In this document: piece after piece, positions 39,320-57,893 of the stretch
Numbering within the stretch: position 1 is the first letter of the stretch
Layout: every line of letters begins with the position of its first letter
NCBI RefSeq assembly: GCF_001294205.1
Contig: NZ_LAQT01000006.1
Location: forward strand, 1-64,000
Direction of reading: 5' to 3'
Length of the DNA: 64,000 nucleotides
Origin: Amantichitinum ursilacus
GTDB taxonomy: Bacteria > Pseudomonadota > Gammaproteobacteria > Burkholderiales > Chitinibacteraceae
Notes under the pieces: generated by a model
Databases searched by the model: none
What the model saw: only the letters and a program-made list of their open reading frames with translations
What the model was told of the DNA's origin: nothing
Program-made: the position numbers and the translations under genes

Positions 39320-39719
39320 TTAACCGCTTGAGCCTGCGGCGCATTTTTGATACCCGGGGGTGCCCGGGAGCACGTTACTTTTCTTTGTCTCGCCAAAGAA
39401 AAGTAAGCAAAAGAAAGGCGACCCTCCGCGCGGTAAAGCTGCGCAGAAGGGATAAGGTCAAAAGCCGAAACTAACCGTCTGCATAACCGGGTTTTGTAGC
39501 TGCCGCTCCGCGGACGCGAGGCTCAGTCGGAGCCGCTGCGCTGTCTCCTACCTTCGCCCGCTCAGGAAATGGTTGGGGTTTTGCACGCGGGGTCGCCTCG
39601 TTGCTGCGCAACATCGGGTGGGCGTGGATACTGAGCCGTGACGGTGAACGGCTGTAGCGCGAGCTGATCGCGTCACTTTTGCGCAAACCACTCCCTCATA
39701 CGGTGGGTCTAGACCCACC
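39320..39719 (+). repeat. Composite intergenic repeat, copy 3
   Basis: It has the same order as copy 2: TTAACCGCTTGAGCCTGCGG, then the CCCGGGGGTGCCCGGGAGCA block, TTTTCTTTG and AAAGAAAAG arms, the GTCAAAAGCCGAAACTAACC block and the CGCTCCGCGGACGCGA block. It ends at the palindrome 39702-39719 (GGTGGGTC-TA-GACCCACC). Its reading frame is shifted after the CRSAD segment relative to the other copies. A shorter GCCTGCGGCGCATGTCTGG echo precedes it at about 39272. Confidence 0.8.
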
Positions 39720-39875
39720 ATCCAAAGCCATTCCCAAGAATGATTCGCTGGACGTTTTACTCGCGAGCCGATCGCGTCACCTCTGCGCAAACTACCGCCT
39801 CATACGGTGGGTCTAGACCCACCACCCAAAGCCATTCCCAAGAATGATTCGCTGGATGTTTTTTACTTTCCCACT
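39665..39875. repeat. 104-bp tandem duplication around the palindrome
   Basis: Two copies, with palindromes at 39702-39719 and 39806-39823. Each contains GATCGCGTCAC, the palindrome, CCAAAGCCATTCCCAAGAAT and GATTCGCTGGA. The first copy is fused to the end of composite repeat copy 3. Confidence 0.8.
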
Positions 39876-39993: not shown

Positions 39994-40011
39994 TCGTCAT
40001 AAAACGGTCAC
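39994..40011 (+). promoter_or_regulatory. Candidate Pho box
   Basis: The sequence TCGTCAT-AAAA-CGGTCAC has two 7-base half-sites in direct repeat, 11 bases apart. Each matches the PhoB consensus CTGTCAT at 5 of 7 positions. A -10-like CAGAAT lies 11 bases downstream (40023-40028), the spacing expected for a PhoB-activated promoter. It is 70 bases before the phytase-like gene. Confidence 0.5.
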
Positions 40012-40080
40012 TGTCCACCCGGCAGAATCGCGTCGTTTTACGCACGCCCTTCGCCCCGAACCCTCCGCCTGGACTCTGCC

Positions 40081-41493
40081 ATGAAGCTCAAAACCATCGC
40101 TTTTACCTTGTTGGCCGCTACGGCTGCCGTTGTTGTTGTTCCCGCGCACGCCAGTATCGAGTTGTTGGCCACCGCCAGCATTGCGGGCAACAGCACCGAC
40201 CTTTCCGGTTTGACCAATACGTTGGAAAACGGCGCACCCAATAACCTGCTGGGTGGTTTTGGTTCGGGGATTGCCTATGCCGGCAATGGCACGTTTGTGG
40301 CGATGCCGGATCGGGGGCCGAATGCGGTTTCTTATAATTCGGCGCTGGATGACACCACCAGTTATATCGACCGTTTCCAGACCTTCAAGCTCACACTCAG
40401 TGCCAGCAGCGGCGGCAATCTGCCGTTTACGCTAACGCCCACGCTCACCAAAACCACGCTGTTGAGCAGCAGCACGCCGCTGGTTTATGGCAGCGGCGCG
40501 GGTCTGGGTGTGGGGAGCGGGGCACCGTCGCAAAACACGGCCAGCACCAATTACTTTACCGGTCGCTCGGATGGCTTCGATCCGACCAAACTGTCGGGCA
40601 GCCCGAACAATGCGCGGCTGGACCCGGAAAGCATTCGCGTGTCCAACGACGGCAAGTCGGTGTTTATTTCGGATGAATATGGCCCGTACGTTTATCAATT
40701 TGATAAAGCCACCGGCCAGCGCATCAAAACCTATTCGCTGCCCGCGTATTACGACGTGGCCCATCTCAGCCCGGTGGGCAATACCGAAATCAGCGGCAAC
40801 AGCACCGGCCGCGTGGCCAACAAAGGCATGGAAGGCCTGGCCATTACGCCCGATGGCAAGACGCTGGTGGGTGTGATGCAAAGCCCGTTGATTCAGGACG
40901 GCGGCACCAAAGGCCTGCAGACCCGCATCATCACCATCGACGTGGCCACCGGCGAGACGCATGAATATGTCTACACGCTGGCCAACAAGAAAAACACCGT
41001 CAGCGACATTATCGCCATCAACGACCATGAGTTTCTGGTGGATGAGCGCGATGGCAACGGCGGCACCGATGCGGCCACCAAAAAGCTGGTGCGCGTGGAT
41101 ATCACCGGCGCCACCGATGTCAGCGGCGATGTAACCCTGCCAACCAGCCTGACGCCGGTCAGCCAGTCGCTGTTCCTCGATCTGCTGGACCCCAAATACG
41201 GCCTGGCGGGCAGCAGCTTTCCGGCCAAGATTGAAGGCCTGGCCTTTGGCGATGACGTCACCCTCAACGGCCAGACGCTGCACACGTTGGTAGTGACCAA
41301 CGACAACGATTTTCTGACTGACGCCAGCAGCAATTTCTATGTATTCGGCTTTACCAACGCCGATTTGCCGGGCTACGTGGCGCAGCAACTGGCGGCCGTG
41401 CCAGAACCGGAAACCTATGCATTGATGGGGCTGGGGCTGGTCGGTCTGGTGGCGGCGCGCAAACGTAAAACGCGCGCTGCGGCACACGCATAA
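40081..41493 (+). CDS. Esterase-like-activity-of-phytase family protein with PEP-CTERM signal
   Basis: An exported protein of 470 aa. The signal peptide (MKLKTIAFTLLAATAAVVVVPAHA) is followed by a beta-propeller-like domain. Hallmarks are SGIAYAGNGTFVAMPDRGPN, LDPESIRVSNDGKSVFISDEYGPYV and NKGMEGLAITPDGKTLVGVMQ, matching the phytase-esterase domain. It ends in VPEPETYALMGLGLVGLVAARKRK, an exosortase sorting signal almost identical to that of the protein at 999-1493. Phosphate-ester hydrolysis at the cell surface is plausible but unproven. A candidate Pho box upstream fits such a role. Confidence 0.85.
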   Translation: MKLKTIAFTLLAATAAVVVVPAHASIELLATASIAGNSTDLSGLTNTLENGAPNNLLGGFGSGIAYAGNGTFVAMPDRGPNAVSYNSALDDTTSYIDRFQTFKLTLSASSGGNLPFTLTPTLTKTTLLSSSTPLVYGSGAGLGVGSGAPSQNTASTNYFTGRSDGFDPTKLSGSPNNARLDPESIRVSNDGKSVFISDEYGPYVYQFDKATGQRIKTYSLPAYYDVAHLSPVGNTEISGNSTGRVANKGMEGLAITPDGKTLVGVMQSPLIQDGGTKGLQTRIITIDVATGETHEYVYTLANKKNTVSDIIAINDHEFLVDERDGNGGTDAATKKLVRVDITGATDVSGDVTLPTSLTPVSQSLFLDLLDPKYGLAGSSFPAKIEGLAFGDDVTLNGQTLHTLVVTNDNDFLTDASSNFYVFGFTNADLPGYVAQQLAAVPEPETYALMGLGLVGLVAARKRKTRAAAHA

Positions 41494-57641: not shown

Positions 57642-57893
57642 CGAACAAGCTCCTGGGAGTTGGAATTCTGTGGGCAGCCCCGGTGGGGCCGCCAGTCCTT
57701 TGTAGATTTTGTTGGCGCCTTTTTTGAGCAGCGCTCTGCGCCGGCCTCAGTGCGGTGGTGGGGGTAACCCACAACCGGAACCGGGCTGGCGGCACTTTAC
57801 GTGCGGCCAGCCCAGGTTATTTCAAGCGCGCAACCTATGACATATGCATGACGAAATGTACGAGATCACATACCGTCCTGTTTTATTGCGCGA

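Follow-up and report, generated by a model that had tools for sequence, protein, structure and literature searches.

The 64-kb stretch of Amantichitinum ursilacus DNA analysed here (64,000 nucleotides, called the window below) carries a predicted Pho promoter directly in front of a gene for a tagged protein with a phytase-like domain. In our preferred reading, to which we assign a probability of about 0.75, the gene is activated by PhoB and encodes a surface-tagged beta-propeller protein whose most likely function is to release phosphate from organic phosphoesters. Pho regulation of the promoter is close to certain as far as a computation on sequence can go: the original prediction had proposed it, and footprinting of orthologous upstream regions with controls gives it strong support. 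The features concerned are the following.

39994..40000, plus strand: first half-site of the Pho box, TCGTCAT (sequence; preset, pstS-derived and combined matrices)
40005..40011, plus strand: second half-site of the Pho box, CGGTCAC, at an 11-bp period (sequence and the same three matrices)
40023..40028, plus strand: minus-10 element CAGAAT, after an 11-bp spacer behind the box
40081..41493, plus strand: ORF of 470 aa with its ATG at 40081 (PF13449 and PEP-CTERM matches)

The whole box, TCGTCAT-AAAA-CGGTCAC, was read directly at 39994-40011, and the ORF from 40081 is the next one on the same strand. The box, the 11-base period of its half-sites and the CAGAAT 11 bases further on had all been predicted, and coordinates and letters proved exact. 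The minus-10 element stands where a Pho layout without a minus-35 element wants one, at 11 bp here against about 10 bp expected. Further upstream of the gene, at 39658-39862, we observed two copies of a 101-bp element that are 92% alike and 104 bp apart. Each copy holds the perfect palindrome GGTGGGTCTAGACCCACC, found at 76 places in the genome against 0 for the reversed control; the element is a dispersed repeat.

We envisage that at low phosphate PhoR would phosphorylate PhoB, which would then bind the two half-sites at 39994-40011 with their 11-bp spacing. Bound PhoB would replace a minus-35 element and bring RNA polymerase to the minus-10 element at 40023-40028, leading to induction. The transcript would give rise to an exported beta-propeller protein with a C-terminal PEP-CTERM tag; an exosortase would handle the tag, so that the protein might stay attached to the cell surface or the extracellular matrix. 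There it would most likely release phosphate from organic phosphoesters. Of this scheme, we observe the site with its spacing and its conservation in front of orthologues, and the genome encodes PhoB, PstS, an exosortase and a kinase resembling PhoR.

In the protein, the PF13449 match spans residues 57-411 and scores 195.3 bits against a cut-off of 27.6; the PEP-CTERM match spans residues 439-462 and scores 32.5 bits against a cut-off of 20.7. At E 0.001 the genome has no other PF13449 match. The N-terminus of the protein is signal-like by eye. The genome encodes one exosortase, EpsH, on contig C13 (236.3 bits). The phytase-like protein with an exosortase tag that had been postulated is thus borne out by two matches over their cut-offs and by EpsH, and the data support an exosortase-tagged surface protein with predicted anchoring. 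The Pfam name of PF13449, on the other hand, is no proof of phytase activity. In an alignment of 45 sequences, in which the 44 orthologues are 53–62% identical to the window protein, many Asp, Glu, Arg and Lys residues are invariant (for example D77 R78, D198 E199, E251, R323 D324, E385 and D408 D410). The AlphaFold model is a beta-propeller (pLDDT 86.3, pTM 0.85). Its closest fold among the matches listed is the C-terminal domain of E. coli YjiK (Z 20.5, rmsd 2.5 over 228 aligned residues); human apyrase follows further down (Z 15.0), and none of the 50 structural matches listed is a phytase by name, an absence that carries no weight. Beta-propellers serve many functions, and the YjiK fold match settles no chemistry. 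A search of the PDB by sequence gave no solved relative of the window protein, and we therefore can only infer an enzymatic activity.

The protein is probably a phosphate-releasing enzyme and a putative phosphate scavenger. The scavenging role belonged to the original prediction and is supported indirectly, by the regulation, by the invariant acidic residues and by the induction under P limitation of a gene annotated to this family in Nodularia spumigena, as given in the available part of that report (PMC9846622). As to the substrate, phytate would be one candidate, as a guess. A rather unlikely alternative is that the promoter is PhoB-dependent, but that the protein is a structural or binding beta-propeller which alters the surface or matrix under starvation. 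The best fold match, YjiK, is titled without a function, and many propellers are scaffolds. The orthologue neighbours also lend themselves to this view, as none of the ten flanking ORFs of L117, L129, L112, L124, L102 and L078 has a phosphate theme; two are without a family match and one (at L112) is another PEP-CTERM protein. Variation in the flanking genes is what one would expect of a lone gene driven from its own promoter. A PEP-CTERM gene of Aquincola has moreover been linked to floc formation, not to phosphate, in the accessible text of the study (PMC9850573). Against a structural role, the invariant Asp, Glu, Arg and Lys would better fit a metal-dependent active site, and we favour phosphate release.

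The box differs at 3 of 18 positions from the E. coli Pho-box consensus. The pattern CTGTCATNNNNCTGTCAY, allowing up to 3 mismatches, has 353 matches in the 4.93-Mb genome, where its reversed control has 269; the string alone therefore proves little. The ORFs following the other strong pattern matches (C3:214806, C38:62113 and three at C36) are not phosphate-gene-like by eye. A scan of both window strands with a preset matrix left just three sites within 1 bit of the score at 39994 or above it: 39994 itself (plus strand, 13.2), 57854 (minus, 14.8) and 11677 (minus, 12.5). The Pho-box-like sequence at 57854, TCGTCATGCATATGTCAT, scores 1.6 bits above the reported site with this matrix and lies 195 bp before an ORF that resembles thiol peroxidase by eye; with a combined box-plus-minus-10 model it does not outscore the 39994 site.

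We derived a second matrix from pstS upstream regions; 30 of the 43 family genomes contributed one, own included. A common box beginning TTGTAATA, mostly TTGTAATATTTCGGAAAC, is found in 29 of these 30 regions. By this matrix the 39994 site scores highest in the 250-bp upstream region of the gene; across the window, its score is reached at 10 of about 128,000 positions, the site itself counted. Scoring with a PhoB matrix, the check suggested for the site, thus places it among the three top window sites (preset matrix) and first in its 250-bp upstream region (pstS matrix), with a low absolute score in the latter case. This absolute fit is poor: the site scores 0.7–1.3 bits, compared with 29.9 for the pstS box of this genome, to which the preset matrix in turn gives just 7.2. 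From these crossed scores it follows that the pstS and the phytase-like promoters carry rather different versions of the box.

This difference bears on the regulator. Another OmpR/PhoB-type regulator with similar direct repeats might bind the site instead of PhoB; the genome has many PhoB-like regulators under the PhoB cut-off, and the site is clearly unlike the pstS box. We regard this as improbable, since PhoB (contig C3, 358.9 bits) is the sole regulator over the PhoB cut-off, the next best reaching 216.8 bits, and since the cyanobacterial orthologues bear the form bound by SphR, which like PhoB binds tandem repeats, here of 8 bp with a 3-bp linker, according to the part of the report at hand (PMC1906773). 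The remaining Pho machinery comprises a histidine-kinase-like ORF directly 3' of phoB, PhoR-like by eye and position, and PstS on contig C2, preceded by the Pho box TTGTAATATTTTGGAAAT. Immediately 5' of pstS and co-oriented with it is a pair of PEP-CTERM genes that overlap each other (L150:11877-13243, G000 C2, minus strand); no Pho box precedes this pair, the best scores in the 300 bp ahead of its first gene being 2.5 and -1.7.

The cyanobacterial loci give an independent check on the predicted Pho control of the gene. We scanned all 13 of them with a preset matrix of three YTTAAYYW-like repeats at gaps 0–8. The mean was 19.6 at gap 3 against 3.3–10.1 at other gaps, and the reverse strand at gap 3 gave a mean of 11.7. 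At least 12.8 bits were reached in 12 of the 13 loci, the exception being L073 with 8.0. Lineages whose Pho boxes differ in sequence therefore each have their own form in front of this gene.

The orthologue set consisted of the best 80 of 227 relatives from a GTDB genome scan plus two from a family search; these 82 loci comprise 13 cyanobacterial loci and 69 others, and related loci are not independent samples. Within the family, the gene is carried by 3 of 43 genomes, own included, and the site is present in 3/3. In the 69 non-cyanobacterial loci, we scanned the preset half-site matrix over gaps 0–11. A signal appeared at gap 4 only and on the forward strand only (mean 9.97, compared with 3.40 on the reverse strand). 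Scores of at least 10 bits were found in 35 of 69 loci, while 200 dinucleotide shuffles gave a mean of 1.66 and a maximum of 7. L081, L082 and L088, in which the frame or the start of the match is broken, were kept in this gap scan and left out of the counts on 66 upstream regions, the leave-one-out analysis, its controls and the tree.

At a threshold of at least 9.5 bits, the box was detected in 39 of 66 upstream regions, against 75 of 2624 tiles from the same loci and 6 of 163 upstream regions of other genes. The matrix used for this detection is blind to the minus-10 element. Of the 39 detected orthologue sites, 29 have an xAxxxT at a distance of exactly 10 bp from the end of the last half-site, and 2 have it at 11 bp; the 11-bp spacing of the present site thus differs from that of the majority. 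In the passing tiles the corresponding counts were 11/75 at 10 bp and 6/75 at 11 bp, and in the passing other-gene upstream regions 3/6 and 1/6.

The combined box-plus-minus-10 model was started from preset matrices and refined on the 66 orthologue upstream regions, with the window excluded. With it the 39994 site scores 19.5. No other of the 127,932 window positions scores as high, and 99.7% of the 2624 control tiles lie below this value. In the leave-one-out analysis over the 66 regions, 44 exceeded the 99th, 51 the 98th and 59 the 95th percentile of the control tiles; 22 of the orthologues consequently stay under the 1% threshold and 7 under the 5% threshold. When the model was trained identically on control sets of 66 sequences, three sets of other-gene upstream regions gave 2, 0 and 0 passes, three sets of shuffles gave 0, 1 and 0, the reversed upstream regions gave 3 and the reverse-complemented ones 7. 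The expected occurrence of the site upstream of orthologues was therefore found in 44 of 66 cases at the 1% control threshold, against 0–2 of 66 for other genes and shuffles. A chance match in front of an ordinary housekeeping promoter, for which the pattern counts given above could be cited, is very improbable in view of the footprint, its register and strand bias, the minus-10 register and the cyanobacterial form.

Pho regulation does not appear to be a general property of PEP-CTERM genes. We collected 27 other PEP-CTERM loci by similarity to the tail of this protein, a sample short of a complete census. A tagged ORF was obtained from 25 of them; with two duplicates removed, 23 were distinct, their starts chosen mechanically. 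The best boxes scored 10.0 (L018, a weak candidate with TAGTAA 10 bp on) and 9.3 (L003) against 12.7 for the site, and we rejected the idea that such genes are generally Pho-regulated.

A PEP-CTERM-like end is present in 48 of the 80 rows of the tree, on which this label requires 5 changes. The labels were assigned by regular expression, and two rows that look tagged are labelled untagged (L090, a contig end, and L111, where a long tail follows the tag). Untagged rows include all ten of the Paraburkholderia group and 12 of 13 cyanobacterial ones; 9 of the ten in the Paraburkholderia group have upstream regions above the 1% Pho-promoter threshold. On the tree the window protein, itself tagged, is placed next to the untagged group (support 89/81, not starred). 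In eight members of the Paraburkholderia group (L092, L097, L101, L115, L125, L132, L138 and L142), an Asp/His-rich tail replaces PEP-CTERM. This tail is perhaps a metal-binding or secretion end.

Tentatively, and at somewhat short of even odds, we suggest that a subfamily of PF13449 forms a class of extracellular phosphoesterases under Pho control that is widespread across phyla and separate from PhoA, PhoD, PhoX and PafA, with anchoring as a swappable module on a single conserved enzyme of phosphate starvation. Within the same suggestion, and judged jointly with it, the protein would be tethered by PEP-CTERM in exosortase bearers and untagged in Nostoc and Paraburkholderia. Our analysis provides a likely role and a testable inducer for one PEP-CTERM protein, and it carries the cyanobacterial phosphate-stress pattern of phytase-like proteins over to the Proteobacteria. 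If the enzyme is active, phosphate release bound to the surface or matrix in biofilms and flocs follows directly.

Promoters of the E. coli phoA/pstS type likewise have two 7-bp half-sites with an 11-bp period and a minus-10 element about 10–11 bp downstream. Unlike these, the present promoter drives a PEP-CTERM-tagged PF13449 protein. PEP-CTERM/exosortase surface proteins such as the floc protein PepA share the C-terminal PEP motif, hydrophobic stretch and basic end; the window protein matches mainly the tail of the models for these families and scores under their cut-offs. A role of this kind had been described as rarely tied to PEP-CTERM proteins, and provisionally we found no tie of PEP-CTERM to the Pho regulon, PhoB, phosphate limitation, alkaline phosphatase or phytase in the open-access literature, as far as its accessible text goes. 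Phosphate induction of phytase-like proteins itself is already known in cyanobacteria, to judge from the available portions of two reports. In Nodularia spumigena, NSP_RS03145 is listed as an 'atypical alkaline phosphatase (esterase-like activity of phytase family protein)', and the gene annotated to the phytase-like family is raised by log2 5.53 at day 7 and 3.82 at day 14 of P limitation (PMC9846622, available portion). For marine Synechococcus, the text at hand includes two phytase-like proteins in its set of P-stress alkaline phosphatases (PMC11020310). These proteins are phytase-like by annotation and, in those portions, raised under P limitation, a likeness to the window protein by annotation alone. 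Both organisms are cyanobacteria, the group in which 12 of our 13 loci are without a PEP-CTERM-like end.
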